Source: Acidimicrobiales bacterium
GTDB taxonomy: Bacteria > Actinomycetota > Acidimicrobiia > Acidimicrobiales > Acidimicrobilacustridaceae
NCBI GenBank assembly: GCA_018401565.1
Contig: JAGYKS010000039.1
Span: 1 to 64,000 of the forward strand
Direction of reading: 5' to 3'
Length of the DNA stretch: 64,000 nt
In this document: in pieces, positions 54,394 through 61,604 of the stretch
How the letters are laid out: every line of letters starts with the position of its first letter
Numbering within the stretch: position 1 is the stretch's first letter
Notes under the pieces: generated by a model
Database searches by the model: none
What the model was told of the DNA's origin: nothing
What the model saw: the letters and a program-made list of their open reading frames with translations, nothing else
Program-made: the position numbers and the translations under genes

Positions 54394-54490
54394 GCCAGCT
54401 CCGGCGGCCCGCAGCCCATGCCAGCTCCGGCGGCCCGCAATCCATGCCAGCACCGGCGGCCCGCAATCCATGCCGGCACCGGCGGCCCGC
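54394..54490. repeat. 26-bp minisatellite between GH1 and rpiA
   Basis: Nearly four units of CCAGCTCCGGCGGCCCGCAG plus CCCATG; variation is at three positions. It reaches the rpiA leader. Confidence 0.95.
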
Positions 54491-55262: not shown

Positions 55263-56666
55263 TCAGCGACTGCGGTACGTGGCCCGACTGCCGGCGGAAT
55301 CCTTGTTGAGTCGCTTGGACAGGTGCAGACCCTCGAGCACGAACTCGACCGCAGCAGCGGTGGCTGCCGGACTGTTGTCGTCCCCACGCAGCGAGGCGAC
55401 CGGTGCTGCCAGGGCCGGGATTTCGTCGAGGAGCGCCTGGTAATCGGTGGCACCCACGTCCTCACCGGCATGCACCACCCGGCCCTCACCGAACCCGTCA
55501 ACGAGGTCGCCAAGGGTTTCCACCGCCATGTGCCGGCGGAACACCGTCAGCACGGCGGCACGCAGGAGGTGGTCAACGATCTGGCCCTCACGACCCTCCT
55601 CGATGGCCTCGATCTCGACCTTTCCGGCCGTCGACGACGTCAGGGCATCGAGGTCGCTGACCCGCGGCACCACATCGGCCTCGCCCAGGATCAACGAGCG
55701 ACGGGCAGCGTTGGCCACCAGGGTCTCCATGTTGGACACCGTGAGCCGGACCGACACCCCCGAACGCTGGTTCACCTGGGGCGACTCGCGGGCCAGGTGC
55801 GACAGCGTTGCCACCACCTCAGCCATGTACGGCGGCACGGCCACATTCAATCCGTCGGCCTCGAGGGGTCGGGCCTCGGACAGGGCGATGGCCACTTCGG
55901 TGTCCACCTCGAGTGGGTAGTGCGTTCGGATCTGGGCACCGAAACGGTCCTTGAGCGGCGTGATGATGCGGCCGCGGTTGGTGTAGTCCTCCGGGTTGGC
56001 AGAGGCCACCAGCATCACGTCGAGCGGCAGGCGCACCTTGTAACCGCGGACCTGCACGTCACGTTCCTCGAGGACGTTGAGCAGACCCACCTGAATGCGC
56101 TCGGCGAGGTCGGGCAACTCGTTGATGGCGAAGATGCCCCGATTGGTGCGCGGCACCAACCCGTAGTGCAGGGTGAGTTCGTCGGACAGGTACCGGCCCT
56201 CGGCCACCTTGATGGGGTCGACCTCACCGATGAGGTCGGCGATGGAGGTGTCGGGGGTGGCCAGCTTTTCGCCGAAGCGGGTGTCGCGGTGGACCCAGTC
56301 GATCGGGGTGTCGTCGCCCGACGCCGCCACCAGATCCCGGGCATGACGCGACACCGGATTGTAGGGGTCGTCGTTGATCTCCGACCCGGCCACGATGGGC
56401 AACCATTCGTCGAGCAGCCCCACGATGGACCTGATCATGCGGGTCTTGGCCTGGCCCCGCTCACCGAGGAAGATCACGTCGTGGCCGGCCAGCAGGGCGT
56501 TTTCCAGCTGCGGCAGCACGGTGTCGTCGTAGCCCTCCACCCCCGGGAACAGCTGCTCACCGGCGCGGATGCGCTCGATGGCGTTGCGCCGAACCTCCTC
56601 TTTGACCGGTCGGGAGACCCACCCCGACGCCCGCAACTCCCCCAACGTGCCCGCATGCTCTGCCAT
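55263..56666 (-). CDS. Mg-chelatase ChlI-like / MoxR-type AAA+ ATPase
   Basis: 467 residues, intact. Walker A is IFLGERGQAKTRMIRSIVGL, the Mg-chelatase insert includes SDELTLHYGLVPRTNRGIFA, Walker B with sensor is NRGIFAINELPDLAERIQVG and LLNVLEERDVQVRGYKVRLP, and the arginine-finger region is PLDVMLVASANPEDYTNRGR. The C-terminal domain (LVANAARRSLILGEADVVPR) is the four-helix lid. No I-domain-specific chelatase partner is present; the VWA protein at 50936 is the probable partner, giving a metal-insertion or protein-maturation chaperone. Client unknown. Confidence 0.9.
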   Translation of the reverse strand: MAEHAGTLGELRASGWVSRPVKEEVRRNAIERIRAGEQLFPGVEGYDDTVLPQLENALLAGHDVIFLGERGQAKTRMIRSIVGLLDEWLPIVAGSEINDDPYNPVSRHARDLVAASGDDTPIDWVHRDTRFGEKLATPDTSIADLIGEVDPIKVAEGRYLSDELTLHYGLVPRTNRGIFAINELPDLAERIQVGLLNVLEERDVQVRGYKVRLPLDVMLVASANPEDYTNRGRIITPLKDRFGAQIRTHYPLEVDTEVAIALSEARPLEADGLNVAVPPYMAEVVATLSHLARESPQVNQRSGVSVRLTVSNMETLVANAARRSLILGEADVVPRVSDLDALTSSTAGKVEIEAIEEGREGQIVDHLLRAAVLTVFRRHMAVETLGDLVDGFGEGRVVHAGEDVGATDYQALLDEIPALAAPVASLRGDDNSPAATAAAVEFVLEGLHLSKRLNKDSAGSRATYRSR

Positions 56667-56701: not shown

Positions 56702-57946
56702 TCAGCCGAGCAATCCTGCTGAGCGCCGCCAGTCCACCTCATCCATGGCCCCGGGGATGAGGGCCTGCAGCATGATGCGACCCAACGGCACCGCCATCTG
56801 CATGCGGGCACGACTCTTGGCCATCCCCACATCCAGGCCGAGCAACTGCGTGAACGTCACTGCGTCGTGGGCCATGGTGCGCGAGTACACGGCGTCGAGT
56901 GCGCCGGCCACCGCCGGGTCGTGACGCTGGGCCAGATGGCACTCCAGACGAAAGAGCTGCCACGACCGACGCCGACCGTCGGTGAACCCGGCCAGCACCG
57001 CCGACACCGTGGCCGGGTAATCCCCGAAGCGCTCATACTGGACCCGGTTGAAATCCCGGTCGAGGCCGAGGATCTTGTCGGTCAGTTCGGCAACTGCGGT
57101 GGCCACCAGTTCCTCCTTGGACCCGAACAGGCCGTAGATGGCACCGTGGGTCAGGCCGGCGCGGCGGGCGATGCGGGTGACTGTGGCCCGCTGCAGGCCA
57201 ACTCTGCCTATGACCTCCATGCAGGCCAGCATCAATGCCGCCCGGGTGGGGTCGTCGTCGATCTCGTCACCCGACGGCAGCTCGGGGAGGGTCAACATTT
57301 CGGGTTCGCCGGCGGGCTCGATGCGTTGTCTGAGCCGCACCGCCATGCCACCGAACGTCCTTTCCCAGTCGGGTTCAACCTCGGCCCAGTCGGGTTCAAC
57401 CTCGGCCCAGTCGGGTTCCACCTCGACCCCCGACGCATCCAGCAGCAACATCCCGAGCAGCAAACTCACGACCAGGGCTGCCTTCGCCCTTTGGTCGGGA
57501 TCGGCCGACCGGGTCACTCCGTGCCCGGCGATCATCGCTGTCCCCCCCGGGATCACCACCTCAGCGAGCGCCTCGTCACGGTGGGCGATGACGATCAGTT
57601 CGATGAGGGCGGACACCGCCGGTGACGGGTTGGCCAGGGCCTCCACCAGTTGACGCCGCGCCACATCGCCTTTGGCGTCGCCGTCATTGCCGAGCAGCGC
57701 CTCCATGGCGATGTTCATCAGGTCGGTCCCGGCCTGCTGACAACGACTCGTCCACAGGTCGACCAGCAGCTCAGTGGTGTCTTCAAACCGGTTGTACACG
57801 GCTCCGGTCGACAGCCCGGCGCGGCGGGCCACTGCGGTAGGACCGAGTGAGTCGGCACCATGGTCGACCACCTCGGCAAGCGCTGCGTCACGCAGACGCT
57901 CGTCATTGATCTGACGGCGAGACGGCGGTGGTGGATTGGTTGCCAC
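56702..57946 (-). CDS. Double TetR-family regulator (two HTH domains in one chain)
   Basis: 414 residues, twice the usual TetR length. The first HTH is LRDAALAEVVDHGADSLGPT with AVARRAGLSTGAVYNRFEDT (about 18-60); the second is RAALMLACMEVIGRVGLQRA with TVTRIARRAGLTHGAIYGLF (about 232-275). Each is followed by its own helical ligand-binding domain (LIELIVIAHRDEALAEVVIP and FRLECHLAQRHDPAVAGALD). Between them is a spacer with a 21-bp minisatellite coding VEPDWAE three times (about 177-195). The single-chain design should bind a palindrome as one molecule. Ligand unknown. It lies between the AAA+ gene and sdhC, transcribed away from sdh. Confidence 0.88.
   Translation of the reverse strand: MATNPPPPSRRQINDERLRDAALAEVVDHGADSLGPTAVARRAGLSTGAVYNRFEDTTELLVDLWTSRCQQAGTDLMNIAMEALLGNDGDAKGDVARRQLVEALANPSPAVSALIELIVIAHRDEALAEVVIPGGTAMIAGHGVTRSADPDQRAKAALVVSLLLGMLLLDASGVEVEPDWAEVEPDWAEVEPDWERTFGGMAVRLRQRIEPAGEPEMLTLPELPSGDEIDDDPTRAALMLACMEVIGRVGLQRATVTRIARRAGLTHGAIYGLFGSKEELVATAVAELTDKILGLDRDFNRVQYERFGDYPATVSAVLAGFTDGRRRSWQLFRLECHLAQRHDPAVAGALDAVYSRTMAHDAVTFTQLLGLDVGMAKSRARMQMAVPLGRIMLQALIPGAMDEVDWRRSAGLLG
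57363..57425. repeat. 21-bp in-frame minisatellite in the double TetR gene
   Basis: Three units of CAGTCGGGTTCAACCTCGGC (plus one base), coding (VEPDWAE)3 on the minus strand. Confidence 0.95.
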
Positions 57947-58112
57947 GGACCATTCCTAACACCAGCGTCCGGTGGCGGTCACATGATTCGGGCGCGCTGA
58001 GCGCTGCGGTTGGGCCGCTGGTGGCACCGGACGCTACCGTCTAGCCCGAACGCAGTGGCCGGGCAATCGCCCGTGGCCAGCCACGACTGTCGTTAATGGG
58101 AGGCAGCACACA

Positions 58113-58889
58113 GTGACCGCAACCAGGGACAAGCCGACCGCCGGTGCAGGTCGGCCGTCGGGCGCCCAGCCCATCAACAAGCCGGTTCGACGTCGTTCCA
58201 TTCCGCTGCTCGATCTCTACCAGACAGCGGTGGGCAAGAAGTGGGTGATGGCCATCACCGGCCTTGTCCTCATGGGCTTCGTGCTCGTCCACATGGTCGG
58301 CAATCTCAAGATGTACGTCGGTCCCGCCGATCTCGACAGCTACGCCCAGTGGCTCAAGACCATCGGCTACCCGCTACTGCCCAAGACCGGCGCCATGTGG
58401 CTGCTTCGGGTCACGCTGCTGGCGGCGTTCGTTCTGCACATCCATTCGGCGTACTCGCTGACCCGCATGAACCAGCGGGCCCGCCCCACCAACTACTCCC
58501 GCCGGGACTACATCGCCGCCAACTTCGCCAGCCGCACCATGCGCTGGACAGGCACCATCGTGGCGCTGTTCCTGCTGTACCACCTGGCCGACCTCACCTG
58601 GGGTTGGGCCAACCCCGACTACGTCTACGGCGAGGTCTACAACAACGTGGTGGCCAGCCTGTCCAACCCGGTGGTGGCGGCGTTTTACATCGTGGCCAAC
58701 CTGGCGTTGGGCATGCACCTGTACCACGGCATCTGGAGCATCTTTCAGACCGTGGGATCAATGAATCCCCGTTTCAACCCCCGCAACAACCCGATCCGTC
58801 GGGGTGTGGCAGCGGCGTTCGTCATCGTTGTGATCGGCGCCAACATCACGTTCCCCCTCGCCGTGCAGTTCGGCATCGTCAGCACCTGA
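58113..58889 (+). CDS. sdhC: Succinate dehydrogenase cytochrome b subunit (type B)
   Basis: 258 residues from GTG 58113, after GGGAGG at nine bases. Five membrane segments: [80 protein letters not shown] and [20 protein letters not shown]. Histidines in [27 protein letters not shown] and MHLYHGIW can ligate two b haems, as in the Bacillus/Wolinella type-B cytochrome b558. It anchors the dehydrogenase and passes electrons to the quinone. First gene of sdhCAB; a short promoter region lies between it and the divergent TetR gene. Confidence 0.92.
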
Positions 58890-58911: not shown

Positions 58912-60837
58912 ATGACCCAAACCATCTCACTCGACTCCAAGGTCCCTACCGGGCCCATCGCTGACCGCTGGAACAACCACAAGTTCTCGGTCAAGCTGGT
59001 GAACCCCAACAACAAGCGGAAGTTCACCGTGCTTGTGGTTGGCACCGGCCTCGCTGGTGCCGCTGCCGCCGCCAGCCTGGCGCAGCTTGGCTACAACGTG
59101 AAGGTCTTCACCTACCACGACTCCCCGCGGCGGGCGCACTCCATTGCCGCCCAGGGTGGCATCAACGGAGCCAAGAACTACAAGAACGACGGCGACAGTA
59201 TCCACCGCCTGTTCTACGACACCGTCAAGGGCGGCGACTTCCGCTCACGCGAAGCCAACGTGCACCGTCTGGCCGAGGTGAGCGTCAACATCATCGACCA
59301 GTGCGTCGCCCAGGGTGTTCCCTTCGCCCGCGAGTACGGCGGCATGCTGGACAACCGGTCGTTTGGCGGCGCCCAGGTGAGCCGAACGTTCTACGCCAAG
59401 GGCCAGACCGGCCAGCAGCTGCTGCTGGGTGCCTACCAGGCCCTCATGGAGCAGGTTGGGCAGGGCACGTGCGAGTTGCACACCAAAGTCGAGATGCTCG
59501 ACGTGGTGGTCAAAGACGGCCGGGCGTGCGGCATCGTGACCCGCGACCTCACCACCGGTGAGGTGCAGTCGCACTCCGGACACGCCGTTCTGCTGGCCAC
59601 CGGCGGGTACTCCAACGCCTTTTACCTGTCCACCAACGCCATGAACAGCAACGCCACGGCCGCATGGCGGGCCCACAAAAAGGGTGCCGCCTTCGCCAAC
59701 CCCTGCTACACCCAGATCCACCCCACCTGCATCCCGGCGTCTGACGAGTTCCAGTCCAAGCTCACCCTCATGAGCGAGTCACTGCGCAACGACGGCCGCA
59801 TCTGGGTCCCCAAGGGCATCGACGACAACCGTCCTGCCGACCAGATCCCCGAGGACGAACGCGACTACTACCTCGAGCGCATCTACCCCTCGTACGGCAA
59901 CCTCGCCCCGCGCGACGTGTCGTCGAGAGCGGCCAAGCGGTTGGTGGATTCGGGCCACGGCATCGGCCCGCTGCACAACGGCGTGTTCCTGGATTTCTCC
60001 GAAGCCATCAACCGGCTCGGTGAGGCCGTGGTGCGTGACCGCTACGGGAACCTGTTCGACATGTACCAGCGCATCACCGACGAGAACCCCTACAACATGC
60101 CGATGCGCATCTACCCCGCCCCGCACTACACCATGGGCGGACTGTGGGTGGACTACAACCTCATGACCACGGTGCCCGGCCTGTACGCCCTGGGCGAGGC
60201 CAACTTCTCTGACCATGGCGCCAACCGACTGGGCGCCTCGGCGCTCATGCAGGGACTGTCCGACGGGTACTTCGTCATTCCGTCCACCATCAGCGACTAC
60301 CTGGCCGACCTGCTCGGCGATCCGGTGGTTCCCACCACCGACCCCGAGTTCGCCAGCGCCGAGGCCGGAGTGAGCGACGAGGTCCAAAAGTGGCTGTCGG
60401 TGGGTGGGACCCGCTCGGCTGAGCACTACCACCGCGAACTGGGCAAGATCGTGTGGGACTACTGCGGCATGGCCCGCAACCGGACCGGTCTGGAAAAGGC
60501 CCTGTCGGAGATCCCGGCGTTGCGCAGCGAATTCGTGACCAACGTGCGCATCCCCGGTGACACCTCGGTGAACCAGGAACTCGAAAAGGTGCAGCGGGTG
60601 GCCGACTTCTTCGACCTGGCCGAGCTGATGTGTCGTGACGCCCTCGACCGCGAAGAGTCGTGTGGCGGCCACTTCCGTGAGGAGTACCAGACCGACGAGG
60701 GCGAGGCCCTGCGCAACGACGACGACTTCTGCAACGTGACGGCGTGGGGATGGACCGGCCAGCCCGGCGAGCCCTCCAAGCACGTGGAACCCCTCGAGTT
60801 CGAATACGTGAAGCTGACCCAGCGGAGCTACAAGTGA
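58912..60837 (+). CDS. sdhA: Succinate dehydrogenase flavoprotein subunit
   Basis: 641 residues from ATG 58912, after GGGAGG. FAD-binding [20 protein letters not shown], the covalent-FAD histidine region [20 protein letters not shown], the dicarboxylate-binding IHPTCIP and [20 protein letters not shown], and the catalytic-loop [12 protein letters not shown] are all present. The type-B variant [16 protein letters not shown] and the long C-terminus ([20 protein letters not shown]) match the enzymes of Bacteroides/Corynebacterium rather than mitochondrial type A. It oxidises succinate to fumarate in the TCA cycle. Stop overlaps the sdhB start by one base. Confidence 0.96.
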
Positions 60838-61604
60838 TGCAGCTGAAACTGAAGGTGTGGCGACAGGACGGCCCGGAGTCCACGGGGCGTTTCGAGACCT
60901 ACGACGCCGTGGACATCAAGCCCGACATGTCGTTTCTGGAGATGCTGGACGTGGTGAACGTTCGGCTGGTGGAGTCAGGACGTGATCCCGTCACGTTCGA
61001 CAGCGACTGCCGCGAGGGCATCTGCGGCACGTGCGGGGTGATGATCGACGGCCAGGCCCACGGTCCGTGGAAGGGCGCTACCACCTGCCAGCTCCACATG
61101 CGGGCGTTCCGTGACGGCGACACCATCGTGATCGAGCCGTGGCAGTCGGCAGGCTTCCCCATCGTCAAGGACCTGATGGTGGACCGCTCGGCCTTCGACC
61201 GCATCGTGGCGTCGGGTGGCTTCATCTCGGCTGACACCGGCTCTGCGCCCGACGGCAACGAGATCCCCATCCCCAAGCCGGTGGCCGACTCGGCCATGGA
61301 CGCTGCCGCCTGCATCGGGTGCGGTGCGTGTGTGGCCGCCTGCCCCAACTCGGCGGCCCAGTTGTTCACCTCGGCCAAGCTTGCCCACCTCAACCTGCTT
61401 CCCCAGGGTCAGGCCCAGCGCTTCAGGCGCACCGAGGACATGGTGGAGACCATGGAGCAGTTCTTCGGTTCGTGCACCAACCATGGTGAATGTCACGAGG
61501 CGTGCCCCAAGGAGGTGCCGCTGGACTTCATCGCCTTGATGAACCGCGACTACCTCAAGAGCAAGATGAAAAACCGCAAGCTGGCCGGCCAGGTCTTCCC
61601 CTGA
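60837..61604 (+). CDS. sdhB: Succinate dehydrogenase iron-sulfur subunit
   Basis: 255 residues from ATG 60837. 2Fe-2S cysteines in SDCREGICGTCGVMIDG and TTCQLHM, 4Fe-4S in ACIGCGACVAACPNSAAQLF, 3Fe-4S in SCTNHGECHEACPKEVPLDF. This is the three-cluster relay of SdhB/FrdB between SdhA and the haems of SdhC. The length and the conserved KSKMKNRKLAG C-terminus fit type-B enzymes. With sdhC and sdhA it forms one operon without sdhD, as expected of the type-B complex. A GTGACCGG-type tandem repeat follows the stop (about 61610-61670). Confidence 0.96.
   Translation: MQLKLKVWRQDGPESTGRFETYDAVDIKPDMSFLEMLDVVNVRLVESGRDPVTFDSDCREGICGTCGVMIDGQAHGPWKGATTCQLHMRAFRDGDTIVIEPWQSAGFPIVKDLMVDRSAFDRIVASGGFISADTGSAPDGNEIPIPKPVADSAMDAAACIGCGACVAACPNSAAQLFTSAKLAHLNLLPQGQAQRFRRTEDMVETMEQFFGSCTNHGECHEACPKEVPLDFIALMNRDYLKSKMKNRKLAGQVFP

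Follow-up and report, generated by a model that had tools for sequence, protein, structure and literature searches.

Within the window, by which we mean the whole 64,000-nucleotide stretch that was analysed (contig 19 of a 3.0-Mb assembly, 90.6% complete), a gene on the reverse strand at 56702-57946 encodes two TetR units in a single chain. Its uninterrupted open frame of 414 codons begins with GTG and has no internal stop, and the TetR_N domain (PF00440) was matched in two separate stretches of the product, with 69.7 bits against a curated cut-off of 24 (1.8e-19, Pfam). Global alignment of the first half with the second gave a score of 59, compared with a mean of 11.4 (sd 5.2, maximum 28) for 200 shuffles of the second half. 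The double TetR gene is real, and the single frame, the twofold domain match and the alignment above shuffles bear out the preliminary description of two TetR units in one 414-residue chain. Judged by the alignment, the halves are related but old. A search of NCBIfam for a named single-TetR subfamily gave 20 weak matches, none near the cut-off, and a search of PHROGs gave three matching families, all of unknown function. The gene stands divergent from the succinate dehydrogenase genes sdhCAB; coordinates of all features are collected in Table 1.

Table 1. Features of the double TetR locus, with positions in the window, strand and basis of assignment.
Feature	Position	Strand	Basis
CDS, single-chain double TetR regulator, 414 aa, GTG start	56702..57946	-	ORF + Pfam
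TetR unit 1, residues ~10-205, repeat included	57332..57919	-	AlphaFold2 helices + Pfam
Helix-turn-helix (HTH), unit 1, residues ~36-53	57788..57841	-	AlphaFold2 + family alignment
Heptad repeat, residues 176-196, alpha8-alpha9 loop of unit 1	57359..57421	-	TRF (DNA array 57364-57429), model, alignment
True inter-unit connector, residues ~206-232	57251..57331	-	AlphaFold2 + family alignment
TetR unit 2, residues ~233-413	56708..57250	-	Pfam + AlphaFold2
Helix-turn-helix (HTH), unit 2, residues ~256-273; recognition helix variable across family	57128..57181	-	AlphaFold2 + alignment
Divergent intergenic region tetR-sdhC, 166 bp	57947..58112	.	ORF boundaries
Candidate operator copy CACCGGACGCT, 17 bp upstream of tetR start codon	57964..57974	-	perfect 11-bp inverted repeat
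Candidate operator copy CACCGGACGCT, 77 bp upstream of sdhC start codon	58025..58035	+	inverted repeat
12-mer GGACGCTACCGT, candidate operator, promoter or both	58029..58040	+	identical in three genus species
sdhC, succinate dehydrogenase cytochrome b subunit (Sdh_cyt), divergent neighbour, proposed target	58113..58889	+	Pfam
sdhA, flavoprotein subunit	58912..60837	+	domain match
sdhB, iron-sulphur subunit	60834..61604	+	start picked by comparison with congener G001
AAA-ATPase (AAA_5), downstream of tetR, neighbour in G001 too; no established part in the system	55263..56666	-	Pfam

The preliminary description had raised the possibility of two separate genes in relatives. In two congeners (G001 and G002) the homologue was found unsplit: a single 438-residue frame that diverges from sdhC. 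In G001, sdhA and sdhB come after sdhC and an AAA-ATPase gene comes after tetR, as in the window; the G002 contig is 3 kb long and extends only to sdhC. The search for single-chain homologues, likewise proposed earlier, returned fused double TetRs in two samples. At 42 of 56 loci fetched from named genomes (some of them from the same genome), one open frame ran across unit 1 and reached at least the HTH of unit 2, two of the 42 being truncated by a contig end; the remaining loci comprised 9 single TetRs, 3 weak two-part matches and 2 loci without such a frame. Among 296 genomes of the Acidimicrobiia, searched at 1e-25 with the best 6 candidates scored per genome so that the counts are lower bounds, at least 33 matched and at least 28 covered at least 335 of the 403 profile positions. 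Near-full-length matches numbered at least 34, in 28 of the 296 genomes, and 33 of these 34 were stop-free, with a TAG in the other. Two adjacent genes with a missed stop between them were rejected as an explanation, given the single frame here and in both congeners and the stop-free class matches. A search of the phylum (346 genomes, 1e-15, best 5 candidates per genome scored) gave full-length matches in 6 genomes, all in the order of the window; as the score of Mce3R, the double TetR of Mycobacterium tuberculosis discussed below, likely falls below this threshold, the result is no proof that such proteins are restricted to the class. In the 8 genomes with matches outside the class, only the part of the profile that represents unit 2 was matched.

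The two units differ in how strongly they are conserved. In unit 1, T47, G48, A49, Y51 and R53, together with E55 just past the HTH, were identical in all 35 aligned family members, whereas the unit 2 positions that match T47-E55 were variable among the same 35. A tree was computed by a quick method, with SH-aLRT support only, from the 25 first and 25 second halves of 25 of the 35 aligned proteins and 7 single TetRs. All 25 first halves lay on one side of a branch with an SH-aLRT of 99. The 25 second halves required 2 changes, owing to one long-branched pair; the single TetR L028 and the second half L075, both long-branched, sat close together, and the second-half group was blurred. This tree of halves fits a single old fusion within the family. 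A recent internal duplication was rejected, first halves grouping with first and second with second in the same quick, SH-aLRT-supported tree.

Each of the three genus genomes holds a second double TetR gene. In the genome of the window it lies on contig 5 (L035, 7670-9001), encodes a single-chain double TetR without the repeat described below, and is divergent from a 4HBT thioesterase-like gene; the second double TetR of G002 is likewise divergent from a thioesterase-like gene (Pfam on the G002 copy). Two GenBank records, CAMAQM010000002.1 (L040) and CAMAQM010000001.1 (L041), are titled Bifidobacterium breve yet are contigs of a congener, and the name looks wrong.

We employed AlphaFold2 on the single chain, with 35 aligned proteins, and obtained a model with a pLDDT of 91.8 and a pTM of 0.91 in which both halves were packed together. 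The best Foldseek match in the PDB was Mce3R (Rv1963c, 9b7y), at 4.8e-8 and a TM-score of 0.53 by query length, with the next match at 7.2e-4. In VIA, Mce3R was aligned over 351 residues (model 6-413 with chain 8-393) at a Z of 21.0, compared with at most 13.3 for the other rows listed, which covered one half each. Identity between Mce3R and the 414-residue model was 12-15%, and the whole-chain rmsd was 6.1 (VIA) or 8.3 (Foldseek). The repeat-free member L041 of G001, modelled identically, gave a pLDDT of 88.6, a pTM of 0.89 and a Z of 21.0 for Mce3R, with 15.4 for the next match. The family profile aligned Mce3R in one colinear stretch from unit 1 to the HTH of unit 2 (2.1e-7). In profile searches of the PDB many single TetRs outscored Mce3R, which ranked far down, and in a single-sequence search of the PDB at 0.01 it was not among the matches. 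The regulator has two complete TetR units per polypeptide, an arrangement conserved in relatives, and its predicted single-chain model resembles Mce3R over the whole chain, as expected of Mce3R-like double TetRs.

Ordinary TetR regulators pair between chains. Two such homodimeric proteins, RHA1_ro04179 (2np5) and FasR (6o6p), matched unit 2 with a Z of 13.3 and 11.5, and their chains have one unit each compared with two here. If the fused chain kept this habit, it would assemble between chains into a dimer or tetramer that presents four DNA-binding heads, like units pairing across chains and the fusion merely tethering them. The usual pairing of TetR units between chains argues for such an assembly, as does the report that Mce3R also forms, by way of helix 15, a homodimer of pseudo-dimers (PMC11667970). 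We nevertheless regard it as unlikely: AlphaFold2 packed both halves of one chain with confidence, the inter-half connector is near-constant in length, and the whole-chain match is to Mce3R, whose core four-helix bundle comes from one protomer, as determined by cryo-EM (PMC11667970). A single-chain pseudo-dimer, as put forward in the preliminary description, is likely on the modelling evidence, and is favoured by the fused frame kept in relatives, the confident one-chain packing and the rank of Mce3R as best structural match. The model suggests that here, too, the core four-helix bundle lies within one protomer. Helices 8 and 9 of the two old, unequal TetR units would pack mutually to give the predicted intramolecular pseudo-dimer.

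The comparison with Mce3R extends beyond the fold. Both proteins carry two TetR units per chain, in 406 residues for Mce3R (PDB record) and 414 here, and both genes are divergent from their target, the target here being a proposed one. Mce3R applies two different HTH motifs to a non-palindromic operator, with two sites 53 bp apart (PMC11667970); the candidate sites at the present locus are two short copies 50 nt apart. By analogy with Mce3R, two unlike recognition helices may read unlike halves of a non-palindromic operator. The two proteins differ in their neighbourhood (sdhCAB here, yrbE3A/mce3 for Mce3R), in the insertion in the alpha8-alpha9 loop of the regulator described here, and in their hosts, several relatives of the present protein carrying Acidimicrobiales or Ilumatobacteraceae names whereas Mce3R belongs to Mycobacterium. 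Engineered single-chain TetRs (sc-rtTA and relatives) also join two TetR moieties head to tail and fold intramolecularly, as proposed here, but they are man-made with a flexible linker, whereas this regulator is natural and consists of two units of low identity (PMC1797012). The 2024 structure of Mce3R was the first of a duplicated TetR, according to its authors (PMC11667970). Among the matches listed in the open-access PMC literature, we found neither a natural double TetR besides Mce3R nor a paper on double TetRs in Acidimicrobiia; a report on GplR1, met by its title, makes no mention of a double TetR in the passages covered (PMC12455991). The 414-residue regulator is an ordinary member of a lineage-wide double-TetR family, of a rare but already known kind.

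Within unit 1, TRF detected a 21-bp tandem array of 3.1 copies at 57364-57429 (95% match, score 118), which encodes VEPDWAE, VEPDWAE and VEPDWER at residues 176-196. The preliminary description had given the peptide as (VEPDWAE)3 from a 21-bp minisatellite. The minisatellite and the three units were recovered, but only two copies are exact, the third matching at 5 of 7 residues. The repeat had further been placed in the connector between the TetR units, as a linker that may vary in length between strains, and this location has to be revised. In the model, whose numbering is one below that of the protein, unit 1 has the end of helix 8 near residue 169 and the start of helix 9 near 194. The interval between them is occupied by the repeat, with two short helical turns and a mean pLDDT of 71 and 86 in the two blocks there, and the true connector comes after helix 9. 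The distance from the conserved helix 9 tryptophan to unit 2 is 38 residues in this protein, 33-38 in 34 of the 35 aligned members and 44 in one; as far as the alignment reaches, the inter-unit connector has not grown. The stretch from the end of helix 8 to the same tryptophan has 24 residues in the protein described here; of the other aligned members (n = 35 in all), 31 have 9-10 residues there, one has 4 and the two congeners have 51. These congeners have no heptad repeat and carry another 51-residue sequence in its place. By the same alignment, the alpha8-alpha9 loop of unit 1 varies between species.

The conserved W194, located at the start of helix 9, belongs to the third repeat copy, and a counterpart, DEVDWRRS, occurs towards the end of unit 2; we therefore take the third copy for the original and regard the other two as additions. 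The repeat would then have arisen recently, when the opening residues of helix 9 were duplicated in frame into the alpha8-alpha9 loop of unit 1; it would be young because its copies are nearly perfect, and tolerated because this loop is free to grow. Since the repeat is in frame and the loop differs in length between species (24 compared with 51 residues), one could see in it a functional switch of variable length, tuning operator spacing or the ligand response between strains. We consider this highly improbable, given that the repeat lies inside unit 1 of the model and not between the units, that the loop has at most 10 residues in 32 of 35 aligned members, that a repeat-free family member is predicted to fold alike, and that similar arrays occurred in all ten sampled stretches of the genome.

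These sampled stretches (window 1-64000, L035 and L105-L112) together contained 75 arrays of period 7 or more per 242 kb (TRF). The window alone had 17 tandem arrays, compared with 0-2 in each of ten whole-window dinucleotide shuffles at the same settings. With the same TRF settings, 5 arrays were detected in 171 kb of G001, which has equal G+C, 0 in 31.5 kb of G002 and 9 in 58 kb of G005, at higher G+C. Minisatellites are about ten times as frequent in the sampled DNA of this genome as in that of the congener of equal G+C; a defect in repair or slippage might be considered as a cause. Periods divisible by three made up 47 of the 75 arrays in this genome, 5 of 5 in G001 and 9 of 9 in G005. One array in the window, a 26-bp minisatellite of 3.7 copies at 54394-54490, has a period that is not a multiple of three; it lies just past a glycosyl hydrolase family 1 frame (end 54388) and overlaps the listed start of a ribose-5-phosphate isomerase gene (54470).

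Because the sampled genome is so rich in minisatellites, the TetR repeat is probably neutral, one of many slippage products in a minisatellite-prone genome, kept because its period of 21 preserves the frame. The excess of arrays over the congener of equal G+C and the share of periods divisible by three both favour neutral slippage, while loop growth at the same spot in two minisatellite-poor congeners hints at tolerance or selection. The TetR repeat seems to be an instance of something that happens throughout the genome; of little import in itself, it points to an unusually minisatellite-rich genome.

Candidate operators were sought in the 166-bp gap between tetR and sdhC, where a perfect 11-bp inverted repeat (CACCGGACGCT) was present with 50 nt between its arms. 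An inverted repeat of at least 11 bp occurred in 1 of 300 shuffles of the gap, a generous figure since the repeat was noticed after looking. The sdhC-side copy is overlapped by the 12-mer GGACGCTACCGT, which is identical at this place in the three species of the genus and has a single occurrence in the 3.0-Mb assembly, compared with twice for its reversed control. In the congeners the tetR-side 11-mer has not been preserved, and their gaps hold other, weaker inverted repeats. Across the genome, CACCGGACGCT had 11 copies and its reversed control 5; open frames of at least 100 aa contained 8 of the 11 copies, the remaining three being both gap copies and one on contig 5. Defining a regulon from these sites was rejected, 11 sites with 8 of them within open frames being too few. 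A promoter and terminator scan of 57900-58150 found none; the conserved 12-mer could be the sdhC promoter. Comparison of the upstream regions of the paralogue gave no shared operator, the conserved stretch being mostly the divergent thioesterase gene. Elsewhere on contig 5 (L035, 6049-6094), a copy of AGCGTCCGGTG is followed 23 bp on by a one-mismatch copy of the conserved 12-mer, possibly a candidate operator; this stretch has no open frame of at least 100 aa and lies 0.4 kb before an HTH_67 gene.

From the position of the genes, repression of sdhCAB and of its own gene by the regulator is plausible. All five TetRs tested with gaps below 200 bp repressed their divergent neighbour (PMC3511530). 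Since the neighbours differ in other family members, the link to sdh is based on three species. Acyl-CoA dehydrogenase, methylmalonyl-CoA mutase and SDR genes lie just downstream, on the opposite strand, at L052, L056 and L045 (Pfam, one locus each), and look-alike neighbours, judged by their first residues, were seen at L053-L055, L057, L059, L047, L048 and L051. Other relatives adjoin a gene for a class I tRNA synthetase, a radical SAM protein or a transporter. Through the acyl-CoA dehydrogenase, methylmalonyl-CoA mutase, thioesterase and SDR genes, the neighbours of some relatives give a hint of regulation linked to acyl-CoA metabolism, as for Mce3R.

It is accordingly possible, if less probable than local control, that the single-chain pseudo-dimer acts on distant lipid or acyl-CoA genes and that sdhCAB is a bystander. 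The relatives beside an acyl-CoA dehydrogenase, methylmalonyl-CoA mutase, SDR or thioesterase gene fit such distant targets, as do the tie of Mce3R to lipid metabolism (PMC11667970) and the occurrence of CACCGGACGCT in one contig 5 stretch without a long open frame; the divergent position beside sdhC in all three genus species examined, and a gap of only 166 bp that holds the conserved 12-mer, point back to the neighbouring genes. On balance we favour a Mce3R-like single-chain TetR repressor that forms an intramolecular pseudo-dimer, with proposed control of its own gene and sdhCAB. Its likely sites would be the two inverted CACCGGACGCT copies in the gap, one near the tetR start and the other ahead of sdhC. 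From this arrangement we infer, tentatively, that repression of sdhCAB and of the regulator's own gene would last until a small ligand opens the protein, the ligand perhaps being an acyl-CoA or an acid tied to succinate metabolism.

A bolder picture, which we hold to be decidedly improbable as a whole, is that of an undescribed, Acidimicrobiia-wide family of single-chain TetRs in which the recognition helix of the first half is invariant (TGA.Y.R.E) and that of the second diversifies, so that the operators would have one half-site in common and another that differs; in the present species, a minisatellite-varied alpha8-alpha9 loop beside the pseudo-dimer interface would tune the repression of succinate dehydrogenase, a TCA-cycle enzyme. 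To Mce3R, the double TetRs described here add an environmental family, apparently of single origin, whose members share one fixed recognition helix and differ in the second. Such a family would offer a natural series for how TetR pairs adapt to asymmetric operators, and may serve as a source of parts for single-chain repressors.
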